Shown piece after piece: positions 5,259 through 15,689 of a stretch of 64,000 nt of DNA. Below the pieces are notes generated by a model. The model made no database searches, was not told the DNA's origin, and worked only from the letters and a program-made list of their open reading frames with translations. Source of the DNA: Streptomyces paludis (GTDB lineage Bacteria > Actinomycetota > Actinomycetes > Streptomycetales > Streptomycetaceae); assembly GCF_003344965.1 (NCBI RefSeq), contig NZ_CP031194.1, positions 5,518,001 through 5,582,000 of the forward strand, written 5' to 3'. Numbering within the stretch: position 1 is the stretch's first letter; every line of letters begins with the position of its first letter. The translations under genes were made by a program, and so were the position numbers.

Positions 5259-6338
5259 ATGTTCGAGGCGGTCGAGGAACTGATCGGCGAGCACGCCGAT
5301 CTGGAGAAGAAGCTCGCCGACCCGTCGGTCCACGCGGACCAGGGCAACGCGCGCAAGCTCAACAAGCGTTACGCCGAGCTGACCCCGATCGTCGCCACGT
5401 ACCGCTCCTGGAAGCAGCTGGGCGAGGACATCGCCACCGCCCGCGAGTTCGCCGCCGACGACCCGGACTTCCTCGCCGAGGCCAAGGAGCTGGAGAAGCG
5501 GCGCGAAGAGGTCACCGAGAAGCTGCGCCTGCTGCTCGTCCCGCGCGACCCCAGCGACGACAAGGACGTGATCCTTGAGGTCAAGGCGGGCGCGGGCGGC
5601 GACGAGTCGGCGCTCTTCGCCGGCGACCTGCTGCGGATGTATCTGCGGTACGCCGAGCGCGTCGGCTGGAAGACTGAGATCATCGACGCCACCGAGTCCG
5701 AGCTGGGCGGCTACAAGGACGTCCAGGTCGCCGTGAAGACCAAGGGCGGCAACGGCGCCACCGAGCCCGGCCAGGGCGTCTGGGCGCGGCTGAAGTACGA
5801 GGGCGGCGTGCACCGCGTACAGCGCGTGCCCTCCACCGAGTCCCAGGGCCGGATCCACACCTCCGCCGCCGGTGTGCTCGTCACGCCCGAGGCCGAGGAG
5901 GTCGACGTCGAGATCCACGCCAACGATCTCCGTATCGACGTCTACCGCTCCTCGGGACCTGGCGGCCAGTCCGTCAACACCACCGACTCCGCCGTCCGCA
6001 TCACCCATCTGCCGACCGGTGTCGTCGCCTCCTGCCAGAACGAGAAGAGCCAGCTCCAGAACAAGGAGCAGGCCATGCGTATCCTGCGTTCGCGGCTGCT
6101 CGCCGCCGCGCAGGAGGAGGCGGAGAAGAACGCGGCGGACGCCCGGCGCAGCCAGGTCCGTACCGTCGACCGGTCCGAGAAGATCCGTACGTACAACTTC
6201 CCGGAAAACCGGATCTCCGACCACCGCGTCGGCTTCAAGGCGTACAACTTGGACCAGGTGCTCGACGGAGAGCTGGACGCCGTCATCCAGGCATGTGTGG
6301 ACGCCGACTCGGCGGCGAAGCTCGCCGCCGCCCAGTAA
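5259..6338 (+). CDS. prfA: Peptide chain release factor 1
   Basis: Recognises UAA and UAG stop codons and triggers peptidyl-tRNA hydrolysis. The protein is 359 aa, starting at ATG (5259). The stop-codon recognition tripeptide is the RF1 type (PxT, here PST in [10 protein letters not shown], near residue 190). The catalytic GGQ is in [17 protein letters not shown] near residue 232. No programmed frameshift is present, which also fits RF1 rather than RF2. The next gene, prmC, encodes the methyltransferase that modifies the GGQ glutamine, a conserved pairing. Confidence 0.97.
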
Positions 6339-8090: not shown

Positions 8091-8752
8091 CCGCCCCTGA
8101 GGGGCGTGGCATAGCGGAGACCGCACACACCGGCACTCCCTTCCGCATCCTCCACGTCAGTACCGGCAACGTCTGCCGCTCGCCCATCACCGAGCGGCTG
8201 AACCGGCACGCCCTCAGCGTCCGCCTGGGGGAGCGGCTCCCCGGCGGGCTGATCGTGGAGAGCGCGGGCACCTGGGGACACGAGGGCGCCCCCATGGAGG
8301 CCAACGCCGAGGCCGTCCTCGCCGACTTCGGCGCGGACGCCACCGGTTTCGTCGGCCGGGAGCTGCTCGACGAGCACGTCATACGCGCCGATCTCGTCCT
8401 CACCGCGACCCGCGACCACCGCGCCCAGGTGATCTCCATGGGCCACTCCGCGGGGCTGCGCACCTTCACGCTGAAGGAGTTCACCCGGCTGGTACGCGCC
8501 ATAGACCCGGCCACCCTGCCCGACCCACTGGACGAGGGCGTCGTAGAACGAGCCCGCGCCCTGGTACGAGCCGCCGCCGCGCTACGCGGCTGGCTACTGG
8601 CCCCCACAGCCGAGGCCGACGAGGTCTACGACCCGTACGGCGCGCCCATCACGTTCTTCCGCTCCATCGGCGAGGAAATCCACCAGGCCCTGGACCCAGT
8701 GGTAACGGCCCTGACGGGGGTCCCGGACGGCGGGGGAGACCGGGCGGCGTAG
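8087..8752 (+). CDS. Low-molecular-weight protein-tyrosine-phosphatase-like protein, catalytic Cys replaced by Ser
   Basis: The fold is that of low-molecular-weight tyrosine phosphatases (221 aa, TTG start at 8087 overlapping the previous stop). The P-loop should read C-x5-R-S/T; here residues 25-32 are STGNVCRS, so the nucleophilic position (residue 25) is Ser, encoded by AGT, while Cys30 and Arg31 are kept. The C-terminal DPYG near residue 183 matches the general-acid loop. With Ser as nucleophile, phosphatase turnover is not expected; a phospho-binding or other role is inferred. It sits between tsaC and, after a repeat-filled insertion, glyA and the WecA-type gene, a place typical for this protein in Streptomyces. 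Confidence 0.85.
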   Translation: MTAPEGRGIAETAHTGTPFRILHVSTGNVCRSPITERLNRHALSVRLGERLPGGLIVESAGTWGHEGAPMEANAEAVLADFGADATGFVGRELLDEHVIRADLVLTATRDHRAQVISMGHSAGLRTFTLKEFTRLVRAIDPATLPDPLDEGVVERARALVRAAAALRGWLLAPTAEADEVYDPYGAPITFFRSIGEEIHQALDPVVTALTGVPDGGGDRAA

Positions 8753-8813
8753 GGAGAGGGTCCGGTGGGGGCGGGCCGAGGCCCAAGGGCTGCCGGTCTT
8801 GCCGGTCTTGTCT

Positions 8814-9240
8814 TGGCGGCCGGGACTCATGCCCCGCTGGGCACCGTGGGGTTGTCGGGTGCGGGTCAGAGCGGAACTCTGTCGGGGGTGTGCCGGTGGC
8901 GGGGGTTGTTGGGCGTGGGGCCGCCCCTCCAGCCTTTGAGTGTCGCGCTTCCGGGCCGGGTGTAAAGGGCGCTCCTTCGTCGCGTCGGCTGCGCCGATTG
9001 CGCTGCGCTCCACCCTTGACACCCGTCCCTCCAGCGCAAGTGCGGCTTTCGGGAGGGGCGGCCGGGGGGAAGGGGGGCCCAGGAGGTGGCGCCGTACTGC
9101 CACTCGGTTCAGGGTCCGGCGGGCGGGTGGGCCCTGCGGGGCACGCGGCAGAGGAATGGGGTGACGCGGCCCCGGCTCAGCGGCGAACGGTCCGCTGTTG
9201 GTTGCGACTCAAGCCCCGCTGGTCACCGTTGCGTTGTGGT
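8814..9240 (+). repeat. Intergenic repeat copy A
   Basis: This ~425-bp gene-free block is the inverted counterpart of copy B at 9441-9859. Shared landmarks, read on the + strand, are TTTGAGTGTCGCGC, AAAGGGCGCTCCTTCG, TCGCGTCGGCTGCGCCGA, CCCTTGACACC, AAGTGCGG, GGCGGCCGGGGGGA, GTGGGCCCTGCGGGG and GGAATGGGG. Its two ends carry similar direct repeats (GCCCCGCTGGGCACCGT near 8831 and GCCCCGCTGGTCACCGT near 9214). ORFs in it have no recognisable protein content. Confidence 0.8.
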
Positions 9241-9440
9241 GCCCGGAAGGCGGACGGGTTCTGCTGCTCGGCCGGGTCTGCGGGCCGGACACCCTGCCCA
9301 TGTGTCCCATATGGTACGGTTTGGTGGTCTGTTGGAGGTCTCCTCGGGCGGCACATGTGTCCTCAGGTGCGTTAGCGGCCCTCCTGGACGCATGGACGGC
9401 CTTCAGAAGCCCACTTGGCGCCACCCGCGTCCCAGCAATC

Positions 9441-9859
9441 CCACAACCCACACCACGGTGACCAGCGGGGCTTGCGTCTCAGCACGCGGCGGACCGTCAG
9501 CCGCTGAGCCGGTGTCGGACCGCCCCATTCCTCCGCTGCGCAGCCCCGCAGGGCCCACCGGCCCGTCGGACCCTGAGCCGAGCGGCAGGACAGCGGACCC
9601 TTCGGGCCCCCTCCCCCCGGCCGCCCCCCCTCATCCGCACTTGCGACTCCGGGGGAGGTGTCAAGGGCGGAGCGCAGCGGAGTCGGCGCAGCCGACGCGA
9701 CGAAGGAGCGCCCTTTACTCCTCCACCGGAGGCGCGACACTGAAGGGAGGAGGGGCGGCCCAGCGCCCAGCACCTCGCCCCCGTACACCCCGGTCTACCT
9801 CTTGGCACTGACCCGCACCCCACAACCCCACCGCGCCCAGCGGGGCATGAGCCCCGCCC
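9441..9859 (-). repeat. Intergenic repeat copy B, inverted relative to A
   Basis: Reads as the reverse complement of copy A along its whole length, with small indels and substitutions. Copies A and B are separated by about 200 bp without recognisable content (9241-9440), so together they form a ~1-kb imperfect palindrome. The rest of the 8753-10161 gap shows no genes. Confidence 0.8.
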
Positions 9860-10024
9860 AACAGACGGCCGTCAGCCGCCGAGACGCCCCGGCAGCCCCA
9901 TTCCTCTGCCGCGCAGCCCCGCAGGGCCCACCCGGCCCACCGGCCCCTAAGCCGAGTGGCAGTGCAGCCAGACCTCTTGGGTTCCCTTTCCCCCCGGGGG
10001 CGCGACACTCAAAGGCTTGTCCCG
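9818..10024 (-). repeat. Intergenic repeat copy C, truncated, in tandem with B
   Basis: Same orientation as copy B and sharing its end sequence (CCCAGCGGGGCATGAGCCCC). It lacks an internal segment of roughly 115 bp: the conserved GTGTCGCGC arm is joined directly to the CCGGGGGGAA arm, without the AAAGGGCGCTCCTTCG to CCCTTGACACC core. This implies either loss of that core or its separate insertion in A and B. Confidence 0.7.
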
Positions 10025-10161
10025 TGGGGAGGCCGTTGCGGTTGTCGCAAACCGGGTGGCGGTGCCGTCGACATCGTCGCGTGAGCGCGGGGTGGAACTG
10101 AGGCGCTCCACCAGTGCATGCGGCGTGGGTATTCTTCCGCGCGGTGGGGTAGTGCCTCCGC

Positions 10162-10977
10162 ATGACTCGGGAAACCAGCTTCCACAGCCCTGATGGTCTG
10201 TTGCTTCGGGGGAGTGTTGGGTACCCGCCAGACACGGCGCAGGGTGTCGCGGTATTGGTTCATGGCGGCGGCGTGACGCGTGAGGAAGGTGGATTCTTCG
10301 GTCGCCTTGCCGACGGCTTGTCGAGCGTGGGGGTCGGTTCGTTGCGCTTTGACCTTCGGGGCCACGGAGAGAGCGAAGGGCGTCAGGAGGAGCTGACGAT
10401 CGCGGGAGTCCTCAACGACATTCAGGCCGCTACGGATCATGTCCGTCAGCTGTTCGACTGTGGTCCCGTGCACCTGATCGGAACAAGTTTCGGCGGTGGA
10501 ATCAGCGCCCTCTTCGCGGCACGCCACCCGCAGGAGGTAAAGAGCCTGACCCTTATGAACCCTCTTCTGAACTACAAGAAGCGGTTCATCGAGGACAAGC
10601 CGTACTGGAAGAATGTCACGATCGACGAATCCGCTGGGAGAGAGCTGACCTCTCGTGGATTCCTGGAGCACTCGCCTACGTTTCGGGTAGGGCGCGGCTT
10701 CCTCAACGAACTCTTCTACCTTCAGCCGCACAGGGCTCTTGGAGACATCGTTTCTCCGACCCTCTTCATCCACGGAACGTTGGACACTTTCATTCCGGTG
10801 GAGAGTTCACGATCCGCCGTCGGGGCTCTGAAGTCAGAAGTGAAGCTTCTGGAGATCGACGGGGCACAGCACGGGTTCGCGGTTCACGACGATCCGCAGT
10901 ATCGGCAGCCGCAGACGCAAGAGTGGCAAGCTCATGTGATCCAGTCGGTAGCCGACTGGATCATCTGTCACGCGTAG
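10162..10977 (+). CDS. Alpha/beta hydrolase
   Basis: A 271-aa serine hydrolase of the alpha/beta fold with no signal peptide. The oxyanion HGGG motif is VLVHGGGVTREEGGFF near residue 33. The nucleophile elbow is GTSFGGG with Ser109, the acid is Asp208 in GTLDTFIP and the base His237 in GAQHGF, a complete triad. The substrate is not known; the fold fits acyl/peptide esterases or small lipases. The start ATG at 10162 has no good ribosome-binding site. Codon use is less G+C-rich than the flanking housekeeping genes (many GTT, TTC/TTT, GAT codons), which fits an acquired region. It is convergent with the GNAT gene, 23 bp away. Confidence 0.85.
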   Translation: MTRETSFHSPDGLLLRGSVGYPPDTAQGVAVLVHGGGVTREEGGFFGRLADGLSSVGVGSLRFDLRGHGESEGRQEELTIAGVLNDIQAATDHVRQLFDCGPVHLIGTSFGGGISALFAARHPQEVKSLTLMNPLLNYKKRFIEDKPYWKNVTIDESAGRELTSRGFLEHSPTFRVGRGFLNELFYLQPHRALGDIVSPTLFIHGTLDTFIPVESSRSAVGALKSEVKLLEIDGAQHGFAVHDDPQYRQPQTQEWQAHVIQSVADWIICHA

Positions 10978-11000
10978 AACAATTCGTAGACGTACGTCGG

Positions 11001-11555
11001 CTACGGCCCAGTCAGGGGTCTGGTCATGGACGTGAAGACGGGCGAGTCGTGAAAGGGCTGTTGTTCGCCGATTTTTTGGTAACCCCATGCCTCGTAGACG
11101 GCCTGTACCGCGCCATGGCCCGCGGCCGGGTTCACGAGGAGTGTGACCCGTTCCTCTGGACGGCGAGCGAGCCACTCCTCGTGGAGTTGCCGGGCCACGC
11201 CTCGTCCGCGCCACTGTCTCCGGACGACGATTTCGTTGAGGGCGACGGTCCGCTCGCCATTTTCCCGGGTGTATCCGTCGGGCAGGGGCGTGGTCATCGC
11301 GCTCCACCAGAGGGTGTTGGCACCGAGAGGGGTGCCGAAACAGAAGCCCACGGTCTCACCGTCCTCCTGGCCGAGGGCAGCTGTCCAGCCCGGTCGTGAC
11401 GCATAGCTGGTCAGCCGTTCGTCGAATCGCTCGATGTCGTAGAAGGGGCCGGTGAGCCCGAAGTCCCGGTGCCGGACCTCGGCGTGAATATCGAGGATCG
11501 TCTGCCTGATCTCGGGTAGCTGTTCGGCGGTGCAGTGGCGGACATTGACAGTCAT
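11001..11555 (-). CDS. GNAT-family N-acetyltransferase
   Basis: A 184-aa acetyl-CoA-dependent acetyltransferase. The ATG at 11555 follows AAGGAG and overlaps the TGA of the upstream XRE gene (ATGA), so the pair is translationally coupled. The acetyl-CoA pyrophosphate loop is VVRRQWRGRGVARQLHEEW near residue 110, preceded by the usual beta-4 strand (TVALNEIVV) and followed by VNPAAGHGAVQAVYEAWGY. The acceptor is unknown; candidates are antibiotics, peptides or protein N-termini. Being made with a peptide-receptor-like regulator suggests a link to whatever that regulator senses, which is inference. Confidence 0.85.
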   Translation of the reverse strand: MTVNVRHCTAEQLPEIRQTILDIHAEVRHRDFGLTGPFYDIERFDERLTSYASRPGWTAALGQEDGETVGFCFGTPLGANTLWWSAMTTPLPDGYTRENGERTVALNEIVVRRQWRGRGVARQLHEEWLARRPEERVTLLVNPAAGHGAVQAVYEAWGYQKIGEQQPFHDSPVFTSMTRPLTGP

Positions 11556-12841
11556 GCGCGGTCTCCTTGTGTGCCGGCGTACCGCTCCGCCCATTGAGCG
11601 GCACCCCGTGCTCCGGGCGCGACAGCGGACAGCTCACGGCTGAACGTATCCATCAACAGGCCGGTACGCCCGGTCAGCGAAGCATTTCCAGCGGCCTTCA
11701 GCACAGATGCGGCCGTGTCGCAGGCGTGTTCCATGTCCCGCTGTCTGAGCTGGGCAAGCGCGAGATGGGCGGTGTAGTAGAGGCGATTGCGTGTGTACCC
11801 GGGACGGAGCGTGGCAAGAGTGCGGTGAAGGTATGCCTCGGATTGATCATGCCGTCCCAGGTGGGACATGGCGAGGGCGCCGAGTCCGAACAGTTCGGAC
11901 CGGTCGTAGAAACCGAGCCAGGCGGGAAGTGGCTCCGCGGCATCGGTCCGGGCGAAGGAGTCGACGGCCAGATCGAAGTTGGCCAGCGCGGAACGCTGTT
12001 GGCCGGAGATCGCCTGGTTCACGGCGAGCCGTACCGCCGCCAGTGAACGCATCGTGGGATTTCGACGGGATGCCTGGGAAGCCCGGCCGGCTTCAGCGGC
12101 GGCGAGGGCTTCGTTAGGTCGCCGCTGTTGTTGGGACAGGACCGCGGCGTGCCCCCATAGACGAAGCTGTATGTCGGAGCTGCCCGCGAGTCCGGCCAGG
12201 GTCATGGCCCGGTCGAGATGACGTTCCGCTCGATCCGGCTGATGTGCGTCGAGCGCGGCCCACAACGCGGTACCGGTGAACGCAGCGGCCAGATAATAGA
12301 GTCGGCGGCGTACGCGTTGAGGAGCATGTCCTGCTGCATGGAGTTCAATGGCGTGCTTCGCGAATTCGAGAGCTCGTGTTTCCGCTCGGACGGTTCCTCC
12401 GTGCTGGTTGTCCGCGGAGACAAGTTCGGTGAATGAGGATTCCAGACGATTGGCATCGGCCATTCCAACACGGCTCACCGCACGGCCGGGTTGTGCGGGT
12501 AGAGCGACCGAGGCGGCGAGCGCAACCGCGGTTCCGGTGAAGGTGCGACGCCGCACATCATCCTCCGATGACACTGATCCGAGTGGTGTGCTGGAACGCA
12601 TGGCCGAACTCACGAACCCTAACTCCTCGGCCGAACAGCCAAATTCTTCCTCAAGGGCACGGCGTTGTCGTGCGTGTGGAGCCCGGGTCCTTCCGGCCAC
12701 CCAATTCCTTACATGGCGGTCGGTCACCGTACCGACCTTTCCGGTGAAGGTCTCGATGCGCAGGTTGAGGGCCTCGGCGAGTTCCTGCTGTGTGAGTCCC
12801 GCCGCAGTCATCCGCGCGGTGAGAAGCGCGTTCCGGGTCAT
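11552..12841 (-). CDS. XRE-family regulator with TPR-like C-terminal domain
   Basis: A 429-aa protein. Residues 1-75 form a Cro/C1-type helix-turn-helix (GLTQQELAEALNLR and VTDRHVRNWVAGRTRAP). Around residues 98-116 is RRRTFTGTAVALAASVALP, a hydrophobic stretch after three Arg, a pattern often seen inside actinobacterial regulators of this type. The rest (about 130-429) is all-helical with TPR-like pairs (AERHLDRAMTLAGLAG, EALAAAEAGRASQASRR, QSEAYLHRTLATLRPG). The architecture resembles peptide-responsive RRNPP regulators and Streptomyces NsdA-like proteins. The start at 12841 is an ATG; the frame remains open far upstream but over unrelated sequence. It is divergent from the HATPase/peptide genes. 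Confidence 0.85.
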   Translation of the reverse strand: MTRNALLTARMTAAGLTQQELAEALNLRIETFTGKVGTVTDRHVRNWVAGRTRAPHARQRRALEEEFGCSAEELGFVSSAMRSSTPLGSVSSEDDVRRRTFTGTAVALAASVALPAQPGRAVSRVGMADANRLESSFTELVSADNQHGGTVRAETRALEFAKHAIELHAAGHAPQRVRRRLYYLAAAFTGTALWAALDAHQPDRAERHLDRAMTLAGLAGSSDIQLRLWGHAAVLSQQQRRPNEALAAAEAGRASQASRRNPTMRSLAAVRLAVNQAISGQQRSALANFDLAVDSFARTDAAEPLPAWLGFYDRSELFGLGALAMSHLGRHDQSEAYLHRTLATLRPGYTRNRLYYTAHLALAQLRQRDMEHACDTAASVLKAAGNASLTGRTGLLMDTFSRELSAVAPGARGAAQWAERYAGTQGDRA

Positions 12842-13028
12842 GCCGCAAAGGTAGCGATGCCGGACGGTAGCTGCCACGCGGCAGTGGGTAAAAGTTTCCG
12901 CTTGCTGGATGGGCTCGATGGCATCAAGTTGCCTGGGCCGATTGACGGCAAGTGGGTTGGCTGGTCGTGAACCTCTTGAGGGCTCGCACGCGCTGGAGCG
13001 TGTGTCCGGCCCTCGGACAAGGAGACCA

Positions 13029-13085
13029 GTGATCAATCGGGCGTATGTATGGGCCGACATGTGTTCAAGGAGTGCCATCCGGTGA
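13029..13085 (+). CDS. Possible 18-residue leader peptide
   Basis: A GTG at 13029 preceded by AAGGAG (about 13020-13025) opens an 18-codon frame reading MINRAYVWADMCSRSAIR. Its TGA overlaps the GTG start of the HATPase gene (GTGA, 13082-13085). It contains Trp, Tyr and a single Cys. The spacing of the AAGGAG to the GTG is short (4-5 bases), so initiation is uncertain. It could be a coupling leader or a short signal peptide; it could equally be chance. Confidence 0.3.
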   Translation: MINRAYVWADMCSRSAIR

Positions 13086-13519
13086 GCCCACGTCGAAAAA
13101 AGCTGGAAATCCTCTGCGGCCTGCCACCGGAGGGGCCGCCGCCGCGGCTCATGTTGGTGAGTGAGCCGCAGTCGGTGCACGCGGCGCGGAGGTGGGTGCG
13201 GGAGTTTGTTGAGAGCCGGTTGCCCGCGACGAGCGGCGCGCGGGCGGCCGATATCGAGTTGGTGGTCTCGGAGTTGGTCACCAATGGGATCCGGTACGGG
13301 AGCGAGCCCGGGGACAGTGTGCTCGTTGTCCTGGACGTCCGGCCCGCGCTGGTTCGGGTGGAGGTTCACGATCCTGTGCGGCGGCGGCCCCGGGGCCGGG
13401 CTGTTTCGCATCAACGGGCCCGTGGGCGGGGGCTGTTCATCGTCGCGGCGCTGGCGGAGCGGTGGGGCGTGGAAGACCGGCCGTTCGGCAAGAGCGTCTG
13501 GGCGGAGCTGGCCCGTTGA
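13082..13519 (+). CDS. HATPase-domain anti-sigma-factor-like protein
   Basis: A 145-aa histidine-kinase-like ATPase of the RsbW/SpoIIAB type, a large family in Streptomyces often placed beside XRE regulators. I chose the GTG at 13082 because AAGGAG lies 9 bases upstream; an ATG at 13049 is in frame but has no ribosome-binding site. The N box is ELVVSELVTNGIRYG near residue 60 and the G2 box is ARGRGLFIVAALAERWG near residue 118. The VEVHDPV segment supplies the usual Asp, but the following glycine-rich G1 loop is degenerate (RRRPRGRAV). Its target is unknown. Confidence 0.85.
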   Translation: MSPRRKKLEILCGLPPEGPPPRLMLVSEPQSVHAARRWVREFVESRLPATSGARAADIELVVSELVTNGIRYGSEPGDSVLVVLDVRPALVRVEVHDPVRRRPRGRAVSHQRARGRGLFIVAALAERWGVEDRPFGKSVWAELAR

Positions 13520-13606
13520 CCGACTGATCCGAACGCTGGCCACCGCCGCGCTCGTCGTCCTCGTCATCACGCTCGTCAGCGATCAGCTCGGCGCACGGGC
13601 GCCGCC

Positions 13607-13633
13607 CTGAACTCCCTGAACTCCCTGAACTCC
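13607..13633 (+). repeat. Three tandem copies of a 9-bp unit
   Basis: CTGAACTCC is repeated three times without interruption. It lies just before a strong hairpin. No function is inferred. Confidence 0.8.
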
Positions 13634-13678
13634 CGTTCCGGCCGGACTCCCGGCGAAGGATTCGCCGGCCGGAACGGG
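13632..13678 (+). terminator. Hairpin after the HATPase gene
   Basis: A perfect 14-bp stem (CCCGTTCCGGCCGG with CCGGCCGGAACGGG) contains an alternative inner stem (CGGCGAA-GGA-TTCGCCG). It is probably a terminator or processing structure separating the HATPase gene from the 39-aa peptide gene. Confidence 0.65.
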
Positions 13679-13755
13679 CCGGGGCCATCAAAGGGCCCCA
13701 CCGCACCACCCGGCCCCGGACGGACCGGAGGCCGGGCACGGCACAGGAGGTCACC

Positions 13756-13875
13756 ATGCGATACCGCATCGACCCGGTCAAGTACGGCGGCGACAACGAC
13801 GGCGACGGAGACGACGGCCAGGACTCCACCCCGCCCGGCGGCTGCGGAGACGGCCAGGGCTGCGGGCGCCAGTAG
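13756..13875 (+). CDS. 39-aa Gly/Asp-rich peptide with two C-terminal Cys
   Basis: The ATG at 13756 has an excellent ribosome-binding site (AGGAGG, 6 bases upstream). The peptide starts MRYRIDPVKYGG, continues with an acidic run DNDGDGDDGQD, and ends PPGGCGDGQGCGRQ. The acidic run resembles EF-hand/dockerin calcium loops by composition. The GG before the first Cys resembles a double-glycine processing site, which would release a 10-residue CGDGQGCGRQ product. No membrane segment or Sec signal is present. It lies between two hairpins, so it may be made from its own short, abundant transcript. I do not recognise the family; secreted signal, RiPP precursor and metal-binding protein are all open. 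Confidence 0.65.
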   Translation: MRYRIDPVKYGGDNDGDGDDGQDSTPPGGCGDGQGCGRQ

Positions 13876-13902
13876 GCATCCATCACCCCCCATTTATCAA
13901 GC

Positions 13903-13927
13903 GGCCTCGCCCCATCCGGGCGGGGCC
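13903..13927 (+). terminator. Hairpin downstream of the 39-aa peptide gene
   Basis: A 10-bp stem (GGCCTCGCCC with GGGCGGGGCC, one T-G wobble) with a CATCC loop begins 27 bases after the peptide stop. It could set the ratio between the peptide and the 135-aa protein downstream. Confidence 0.6.
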
Positions 13928-13957
13928 GCCCCACCCCCCACCCGCACAAGGACACAC

Positions 13958-14365
13958 GTGCCCACACCCCACCACCACGCCTACCTCTGGCTCGGCCACG
14001 GCGACCTCCTCGTCAAACCCGGCGACGCCCACCGCCGCCCCGGCCACCCCGAATTCCCCTCCACCCCCGTCATGCCCCTCGAAAGCGCCGACTGGCTCCT
14101 CAAGACCCCCGCACACGTACGGGGCACATTTGCCCCTCCCCGAGACGCCGCCCACTGGTACGTCGAACAGTTCACCCAGCACGCCTCCGCCGTCACCGGC
14201 AGCTACGCCCGCCCGGCCGACGCGGTCCACCTCATCCGCCGCCTCGAAAACCGACACGACATCGTCGGAGGCTGGTGGCTCACCGGCGGACGCTTCCTCT
14301 CCCTCAACCTCATCGCCTGCACACCCCACCCCCTACGACCACACCACACCTGCCCCACGCCCTGA
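13958..14365 (+). CDS. Conserved-looking hypothetical protein, 135 aa
   Basis: The GTG at 13958 follows AAGGA. The protein opens MPTPHHHAYLWLGHGDLL and has a central YVEQFTQHASAVTGSYARP and a C-terminal GGWWLTGGRFLSLNLIACTPHP. It has no signal peptide, membrane helix or catalytic motif that I recognise. Codon use is normal for Streptomyces and the aromatic/His content is structured, so it looks like a real protein. It follows the 39-aa peptide gene after one hairpin and precedes glyA by 70 bp. A role in handling or binding the peptide is possible but only inferred from position. Confidence 0.65.
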   Translation: MPTPHHHAYLWLGHGDLLVKPGDAHRRPGHPEFPSTPVMPLESADWLLKTPAHVRGTFAPPRDAAHWYVEQFTQHASAVTGSYARPADAVHLIRRLENRHDIVGGWWLTGGRFLSLNLIACTPHPLRPHHTCPTP

Positions 14366-14435
14366 CCGGCCCCCGCGCCGGACCCGGCTCGGACGCCTAC
14401 ATTGGAGGAGGGACGTCGCCTCCGAGGAGATCGTC

Positions 14436-15689
14436 ATGTCCGTAGCCACCGCCTATCCGTCCCAGCTCGATGCGCTGCGTCGGCAGGATCCGGAGATGGC
14501 TGAGGTGATCCTCGCGGAGCTGCGCCGGCAGGCGGACAGTCTTCAGCTCATCGCGGCGGAGAACTTCACCTCGCCCGCCGTTCTCGCCGCCCTCGGGTCG
14601 CCGCTCGCCAATAAGTACGCCGAGGGGTATCCCGGCGCCCGGCACCACGGTGGCTGTGAGCTGGTCGATACCGCCGAGCGGATCGCGATCGGCCGGGCCG
14701 AGGGGCTTTTTGGGGCTGAGCATGCCAACGTACAGCCGCACTCCGGGTCCTCCGCCGTCCTCGCGGCGTACGCGGCGCTGCTGCGGCCCGGGGACACGGT
14801 GCTGGCGATGGGGCTGCGGTACGGGGGGCATCTCACCCATGGCGCGCCTGTGAACTTCTCCGGGCGGTGGTTCGACTTCGTCGGGTACGGGGTGGATCCG
14901 GAGACCGGGCTGATCGATTACGGGCGCGTGGAGGAGCTGGCGGGTGTGTACCGGCCCAAGGCGATCGTCTGCGGGTCGATCTCGTATCCGCGCCATATCG
15001 ACTACGCCGCGTTCCGGGACATCGCCGACGACGTGGGTGCCTATCTGATCGCGGACGCGGCCCATCCGATCGGGCTGGTCGCCGGGGGAGCGGCGCCGAC
15101 GCCGGTGCCGTACGCCGATGTCGTTTGTGCGACGACGCACAAGGTGCTGCGGGGGCCGCGCGGCGGGATGATCCTGTGCGGGGAGCGGTACGCGGAGCGG
15201 ATCGACCGGGCGGTGTTCCCGTTCACGCAGGGCGGCGCCCAGATGCACACCATCGCCGCGAAGGGGGTCGCCTTCGGTGAGGCGGCGGCTCCGGGTTTCG
15301 CCGTCTACGCCCACCAGGTCGTCGCCAACGCCCGTGCGCTGGCAAGGACGTTGGCCGCGGAAGGCGTCCATGTCACCACCGAGGGCACGGACACGCATCT
15401 GATCACGGCCGACACCGCGCCGCTCGGTGTGGACGGCGCGACCGCCCGCGGCCGGCTGGCCGCCGCGGGCGTGGTGCTGGACACCTGCGTGCTGCCGTAC
15501 GGGGAGGAGCGGGGGATCAGGCTCGGTACCGCCGCCGTGACCACCCAGGGCATGCGGGAGGCGGAGATGGAGCGGATCGGGCACCTGGTGGCCTCGGTGG
15601 TACGGGAGGGCGCTGACGGGGCGCGTGGGGCTCGCGATGATGTGCGCGAGCTGGTGGGGCGGTTTCCGCCGTATGCGACGCTTTCCTGA
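14436..15689 (+). CDS. glyA: Serine hydroxymethyltransferase
   Basis: PLP enzyme interconverting serine and glycine with tetrahydrofolate. It is 417 aa from the ATG at 14436, with GAGGAG 8 bases upstream. The SHMT signature ADVVCATTHKVLRGPRGG contains the PLP lysine at 236. The substrate/folate segments LIAAENFTSP and YAEGYPGARHHGGCE are intact, as are PHSGSSAVLA and the C-terminal RLGTAAVTTQGM. It is likely one of two GlyA proteins in the genome. The upstream GGAGG (about 14404) and the CCTCC before the ribosome-binding site could pair and affect initiation, a weak suggestion only. Confidence 0.95.
   Translation: MSVATAYPSQLDALRRQDPEMAEVILAELRRQADSLQLIAAENFTSPAVLAALGSPLANKYAEGYPGARHHGGCELVDTAERIAIGRAEGLFGAEHANVQPHSGSSAVLAAYAALLRPGDTVLAMGLRYGGHLTHGAPVNFSGRWFDFVGYGVDPETGLIDYGRVEELAGVYRPKAIVCGSISYPRHIDYAAFRDIADDVGAYLIADAAHPIGLVAGGAAPTPVPYADVVCATTHKVLRGPRGGMILCGERYAERIDRAVFPFTQGGAQMHTIAAKGVAFGEAAAPGFAVYAHQVVANARALARTLAAEGVHVTTEGTDTHLITADTAPLGVDGATARGRLAAAGVVLDTCVLPYGEERGIRLGTAAVTTQGMREAEMERIGHLVASVVREGADGARGARDDVRELVGRFPPYATLS

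Follow-up and report, generated by a model that had tools for sequence, protein, structure and literature searches.

Which protein does a 39-aa, cysteine-containing peptide work with, when its gene faces a regulator on one side and directly precedes another small gene on the other? This question is raised by a locus in a window of 64,000 nucleotides (the whole stretch that was analysed), which is part of the 8.45 Mb contig G000:C1 of Streptomyces paludis. On the plus strand, a HATPase_c_2 gene, the 39-aa peptide gene and a 135-aa gene are followed by glyA, and an XRE regulator gene and a GNAT acetyltransferase gene lie divergent from this set on the minus strand. A sequence-only reading of this DNA had proposed a peptide-signalling cluster, with the TPR-like XRE protein as the receptor. 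We found that the 39-aa and 135-aa genes are, judged by their gene neighbourhoods, a conserved two-gene unit in Streptomyces, and that a reading of the peptide as a secreted cell-to-cell signal is not supported. The two genes are as follows, and the product of the second is called the partner below.

13756..13875, plus strand: gene for a 39-aa acidic peptide (isoelectric point, pI, 4.1) with a basic start, an Asp/Gly-rich middle and a C-terminal loop, GGCGDGQGCGRQ.
13958..14365, plus strand: gene for the 135-aa partner protein (15.1 kDa, pI 8.8), with H5, H7, C121 and C132 nearly invariant.

The distribution of the two genes was evaluated in 199 genomes of the genus by searches for the peptide, the partner and the XRE protein, in which the best eight or fewer candidates per genome were scored and the coordinates then compared. 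The peptide query gave nine places in seven genomes; eight places in six genomes (G000, G008, G058, G064, G105 and G191) adjoin a partner match, and the match in G121:C141 (E 0.0078) has no partner match beside it. The partner was matched in 66 of the 199 genomes. Peptides were mostly found via the partner, for which 144 genes at 143 loci were assembled from part of the genus-search matches, a named genome collection (49 loci) and taken stretches of sequence. Seven of the 144 genes are truncated or at a contig edge, and hence have no upstream class; one of these seven (L133) was misclassed via a wrong anchor, and the peptide is actually present there.

A peptide with the pattern CGx(1-3)GC near its end was found on the sense strand within 330 bases upstream of 51 of the 144 partner genes, a count too low by one owing to L133. 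As controls, the antisense strand gave no match for any of the 144 genes, and the downstream side gave 0 of 141 (sense) and 1 of 141 (antisense); two chance matches to this loose pattern were found elsewhere in the six frames of the 64-kb window. In all 51 tails, CG and GC are separated by exactly three residues and an Arg comes after GC, neither of which is forced by the pattern, and the consensus is C-G-[DGSER]-[GA]-[DQS]-G-C-[GQ]-R, i.e., CGxxxGCxR. The two Cys and two Gly columns of the loop, which the pattern itself fixes, were left out of the codon count; the remaining tail columns vary by 0.09 at first, 0.12 at second and 0.50 at third codon positions (43 distinct DNA tails), and the ratio of non-synonymous to synonymous change (pN/pS) of the whole peptide was 0.23 (103 pairs that match in length and are 60% or more identical). 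Because codons change mostly at silent positions, the 39-aa peptide gene is, on this codon pattern, a real gene under selection at the amino-acid level. The near-ideal ribosome-binding site noted in the sequence-only reading is present, as AGGAGGT, and the absence of conservation that the same reading had named as a ground for refutation was not seen, as both the 39-aa and the 135-aa genes are clearly conserved. The peptide has no Pfam match, including none to DUF397, and no hydrophobic signal-like stretch when judged by eye. In the literature searched, which left out most subscription papers and all preprints, we found no paper that mentions the tail.

The partner is the constant neighbour of the peptide, whichever regulator family adjoins. 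Peptide and partner distances are correlated (Mantel r 0.72, n = 49), which shows joint travel. Where a genome has paralogous pairs, each usually keeps to its own type; G008 is an exception, and the comparison was a near tie or in the opposite direction for G120 and one G058 pair. Taken together, these neighbourhoods indicate that the constant unit is a small Cys-Gly-loop protein and its partner, and that an XRE-type regulator stands near the unit. Three peptide/partner pairs are present at separate places in one genome of S. pathocidini (L089, L096 and L097).

The 135-aa protein, described before as unknown, is encoded by a conserved gene (144 relatives collected) and has no Pfam or NCBIfam family match. 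The partner tree and the conservation table contain 132 of the 144 partner genes, in which H5 is kept in 130, H7 in 131, C121 in 128 and C132 in 130. An AlphaFold model of the protein had a predicted local distance difference test (pLDDT) score of 92.8, and its comparison with the PDB gave no convincing structural match. With a DUF397-linked relative of the partner as the query, 822 proteins were matched at E ≤ 1e-10. A phylum search with profile A1 found the partner in 3 of 346 genomes, all of the same genus, a figure that underestimates the spread because the best 12 candidates per genome were considered. A relative is found in Wenjunlia (L123), and another (36% identity) lies at 1538732–1539091 of Nonomuraea gerenzanensis NZ_LT559118.1, where no gene is annotated. 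At L028, L154, L161, L163 and L164, the partner lies behind a 113–127-aa protein, which was DUF427 in the one scanned.

The slot in front of the partner can also be taken by a DUF397-type (BldB-type) protein, which is encoded directly upstream in 64 of the 144 genes (the damaged partner gene of L206 is counted twice, both times in this class), and a CGG...C stretch is present in 60 of the 64. The class was found by a profile whose seeds include such proteins, and 57 of the 64 still match at E ≤ 0.01 with a DUF397 profile built without them. In a Pfam scan of seven slot proteins, five passed the DUF397 cut-off and those of L135 and L030 fell below it, and NCBIfam gave no match for the one DUF397-slot protein tried. 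A single genome contains sister genes of both kinds, L213 with the peptide and L214 with DUF397. The labels are clustered on the partner tree, where the peptide label changes 4 times versus 39.7 times when shuffled, with none of 500 shuffles as low. By gene order and this tree, DUF397 holds the slot of the peptide in a sister branch of the partner family. The S. paludis genome itself has two partner relatives (L135 and L136) in DUF5753-XRE/DUF397 loci.

The regulators around the peptide loci were compared within 6 kb. A match to a Scr1/WhiJ-type XRE profile was found in 32 of 36 named peptide loci (31 without the 61-aa HTH protein of L105), and a DUF6879-like gene in 30 of the 36. The Scr1-type matches are those of our own profile; two proteins of this type, those of L135 and L062, were checked in Pfam, and both are DUF5753. 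DUF5753 occurs at 54 places in the 8.45 Mb of the S. paludis genome, from which it is estimated that about 8% of places lie within 6 kb of one; the two nearest the window are about 50 and 80 kb off. The four loci without a Scr1-type match have an NsdA-type or a different HTH protein instead. An NsdA-family regulator is present at L087 and L095, an HTH_3 protein at L105 and L119, and an HTH protein below the cut-off at L096.

The set that stands next to the pair in the window consists of three genes.

11552..12841, minus strand: NsdA-family TPR-like XRE regulator (NCBIfam NF053720, 243.6 bits, cut-off 75).
11001..11555, minus strand: GNAT acetyltransferase (PF00583, PF13508 and PF13673 above cut-off), with a 4-base overlap with the XRE stop.
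13082..13519, plus strand: HATPase_c_2 protein of the AbaA/anti-sigma type (PF13581, 53.7 bits, cut-off 27.4).

These matches bear out what had been read from the letters, namely an XRE protein with a TPR-like C terminus coupled to an acetyltransferase, and a HATPase gene divergent from it. In Pfam, the XRE protein matches HTH_3 alone, and this below the cut-off (19 vs. 23 bits), with no match to a TPR model or DUF5753. It scores 27 bits against the NsdA equivalog profile (cut-off 830), so that it is a member of the NF053720 NsdA family by profile but not NsdA itself. The gene contains one TTA codon, and a TTA codon makes a Streptomyces gene dependent on the bldA tRNA. All eight XRE homologues compared (the seven best outside the S. 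paludis genome, L139–L145, and L086) are likewise followed by a GNAT gene that overlaps by 4 bases, and a divergent HATPase gene is near four of the eight (L139, L141, L142 and L143). The HATPase of the window is 71% identical over 68 aa to that of S. corynorhini L095, the gene of which is cut by a run of N.

A divergent NsdA-family regulator recurs in four related loci, L086, L087, L095 and L099 (276, 189, 100 and 96 bits, respectively), with peptide and partner in the first three and a decayed pair in L099. The partners of the window, L086 and L087 group together as a single branch of the partner tree, and those of L095 and L099 are truncated and absent from it. In the decayed locus (L099, 6800–7340), the HATPase and a small membrane open reading frame (ORF) are retained, the peptide is gone and the start of the partner is lost. 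Across the genus, an XRE homologue (E ≤ 1e-20) was found in 96 of the 199 genomes, and, among the candidates scored, it is near the peptide or partner in the genome of the window only. The co-occurrence of the XRE-TPR family with the small families, which the sequence-only reading had named as its check, therefore fails in this sample: the homologues occur mostly without the small ORFs, and the co-conservation of XRE and peptide that marks an RRNPP system is seen in 1 of 96 genomes.

How might the pair act? We tentatively favour, as close to an even call, that peptide and partner form an intracellular small-protein/partner regulatory module in Streptomyces XRE loci, as a variant of WhiJ-BldB-AbaA, because the latter is the best published model for such loci. 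In the study concerned (PMC10294661), paralogues of BldB (DUF397), WhiJ (XRE) and AbaA (HATPase) cluster together, WhiJ9, BldB, AbaA6 and IosA affect the development of S. venezuelae, and the biochemical function of BldB is called unknown by those who study it. As in the window, an XRE protein, a HATPase_c protein and a very small protein are encoded side by side in those loci (PMC10294661). Unlike them, the window has a CGDGQGCG peptide, an NsdA-type XRE protein and, in addition, the 135-aa partner. A further likeness is to IosA, an inhibitor of sporulation that adjoins whiJ9/bldB9 and the modelled structure of which, according to the authors of that study, is unlike any solved; compared by description only, IosA and the partner are both of about 15 kDa and encoded beside genes for WhiJ/BldB or their like. 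The pI of IosA is 10.3 vs. 8.8 for the partner, and its gene is divergent from whiJ9 with a leaderless message, whereas the partner gene lies behind a small gene (PMC10294661). In the Scr1-Scr2 system of S. coelicolor (XRE-DUF397; PMC10364602), the XRE protein is of the type found near the 32 peptide loci but absent from the window cluster.

In such a module, the peptide would occupy the slot of the DUF397 protein beside relatives of the same partner. The neighbouring NsdA-family XRE protein, with its coupled GNAT, may control the promoter of the divergent HATPase-peptide-135 set, a control of the pair that only the repeated divergent layout suggests. The Cys-Gly loop of the peptide would bind the partner and set its activity, a role that DUF397 may have in the sister branch, and H5, H7, C121 and C132 could form a metal or thiol site at which binding occurs. 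The output would be control of development or of antibiotics, in line with the WhiJ/BldB/AbaA loci. A wider proposal, that peptides and partners make up a novel class of gene-encoded peptide system in which the partner family binds or chemically modifies the Cys-Gly loop both of free peptides (about 30–46 aa) and of DUF397 developmental regulators, is doubtful. If the partner does act on both, peptide and DUF397 would be interchangeable ligands of one partner family, and a new peptide chemistry or metal site would be linked to development in Streptomyces. A partner that goes with DUF397 or with a tiny, defined peptide in one slot gives access to a minimal ligand together with a binding partner, both suited to direct production and testing; in a search with most subscription papers and all preprints outside it, we found no paper whose title or start of abstract describes such a pair.

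Several observations weigh against this intracellular module. Neither small gene is upstream of 22 of the 144 partner genes, among which there are three with Cys-less peptides that have the same leader, one with a similar short acidic peptide and five with the 113–127-aa proteins. In 15 of the 36 named peptide loci, a DUF397 gene persists no more than 6 kb away, and so the peptide is no simple replacement of DUF397. A HATPase match lies that close in only 8 of these 36 loci. Of the features of a WhiJ-BldB-AbaA locus, the window has the HATPase_c protein; its regulator is of the NsdA and not the WhiJ/DUF5753 type, and the cluster lacks a DUF397 gene. The Mantel r of 0.72 does not show binding, as any co-travelling neighbours would match. 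When peptide and partner were linked in one chain, the peptide had a pLDDT of 53–66 and no docking was predicted. Lastly, the putative metal or thiol site is a deduction from residue conservation.

A possible, if somewhat unlikely, alternative, and one that is compatible with the other readings, is that the pair and the XRE/GNAT set are chance neighbours that reached the PTP-glyA site separately and do not act on each other. The claim that the cluster interrupts the tsaC/PTP-glyA neighbourhood was confirmed, in that PTP and glyA are 5.7 kb apart in the window vs. about 90–500 bases in 11 of 12 relatives of the same genus; in the twelfth (G010), the sole glyA match is a distant paralogue at another place. 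The region between PTP and glyA looks like an insertion, because the two genes nearly adjoin in those 11 relatives. In S. corynorhini L095, tsaC and PTP are 98 and 96% identical to those of the window, the peptide gene and the start of the 135-aa gene lie 5.4 kb beyond PTP, and the contig ends before glyA; the pair is probably at the same genomic site as in the window. Between tsaC-PTP and the pair, L095 has another, much diverged NsdA-type regulator and GNAT, as would be expected of chance neighbours. The GC content of third codon positions (GC3) is 0.66–0.78 in 10162–12841 and 0.83–0.93 in 13082–14365, and because it is lower in the XRE/GNAT half, different histories of this half and the HATPase-peptide-135 half are suggested. 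Against chance, divergent NsdA-type regulators stand beside the pair in the four other loci.

Graspetide and lanthipeptide loci are flanked by regulators of a similar kind, and the main rival is therefore a new pair like those of ribosomally synthesized and post-translationally modified peptides (RiPPs); we consider it rather unlikely. The peptide would then be the precursor, its acidic part serving as leader and its short Cys-containing C terminus as core, and the 135-aa protein would act on that core as a small maturase or carrier. The layout of the peptide is precursor-like, and the partner belongs to no recognised family. In L160, L165 and L170, a Cys-less peptide of the same layout largely shares the family leader MRLQHxVVRxDPEDGDTMPDxDAP but has another tail, GDSDDGRQYAR, and precedes a partner branch of its own; a similar short acidic peptide ending in GDSDDGRPY precedes another partner branch at L209. 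HATPase (pfam13581), DUF5753 HTH and TPR proteins occur near graspetide loci (PMC8939145 and PMC13097080). At L141, an FxLD lanthipeptide gene (5639–5818; TIGR04363, 37.3 bits, cut-off 30) and the gene of a 997-aa protein adjoin an NsdA-type XRE/GNAT/HATPase set, a layout that suggests that such regulators may serve peptide clusters. However, no known maturation enzyme or transporter was found among the window cluster proteins scanned in Pfam and NCBIfam, and none of the listed recurrent neighbour families in the loci of the first 20 relatives appeared by eye to be a RiPP enzyme, with no enzyme scan made there. Furthermore, the sister branch of the partner goes with DUF397 proteins, and the core lacks Ser/Thr for lanthionine in nearly all peptides.

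A toxin-antitoxin-like unit, made of peptide and 135-aa protein, of XRE and GNAT, or of both adjoining, is improbable. Type II toxin-antitoxin function has been proposed for both DUF397-XRE and GNAT-XRE pairs (PMC2701414), and the 4-base XRE/GNAT overlap of the window and the eight homologues would suit one. In contrast, a role in regulating antibiotic production is described for XRE/DUF397 pairs of S. coelicolor (PMC10364602), and the 135-aa protein was found in none of the phage records searched and in one plasmid-collection record, which is chromosome-sized.

Signalling of the RRNPP type, in which the TPR regulator would sense the 39-aa peptide after its export and processing, is highly improbable and was rejected as the leading explanation, because, although an HTH-TPR protein lies near a small gene in the window and the pair lies opposite an NsdA-family TPR regulator there and in L086, L087 and L095, the peptide shows by eye no signal-like stretch, its C-terminal tail is the same beside quite different regulators, homologues of the regulator in the genus sample go without it, and it is paired with another protein in place of any general receptor-peptide pairing. 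What stands of the proposed receptor-peptide link is a conserved peptide opposite a TPR regulator in a layout that recurs in four loci; what is not supported is the link itself, as the constant companions are GNAT for the regulator and the partner for the peptide.

Three further features lie in or beside the cluster.

10162..10977, plus strand: alpha/beta hydrolase (PF12146/PF00561; GC3 0.71), within the insertion and at most a candidate member of the unit.
13029–13085, plus strand: open frame of 18 codons that terminates on the HATPase start (GTGA).
13515..13610, plus strand: weak, hydrophobic open stretch of about 30 aa, LIRTLATAALVVLVITLVSDQLG, seen at two loci and without ATG, GTG or TTG near its start.

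The 18-codon ORF had been listed as part of the cluster; it is an open frame only, with no clear counterpart by eye in L095, the sole comparable locus, and was dropped as a gene for want of support. A scan of 12700–14500 for promoters and terminators, which is of little use for Streptomyces, found none. The hydrophobic stretch resembles a 33-aa ORF after the HATPase gene in L099, the other of the two loci. Between PTP and the hydrolase gene, gene calling predicted no gene in 8750–10160, and this 1.4 kb contains many long inverted and direct repeats, with arms of up to 124 nt that are 81% complementary.

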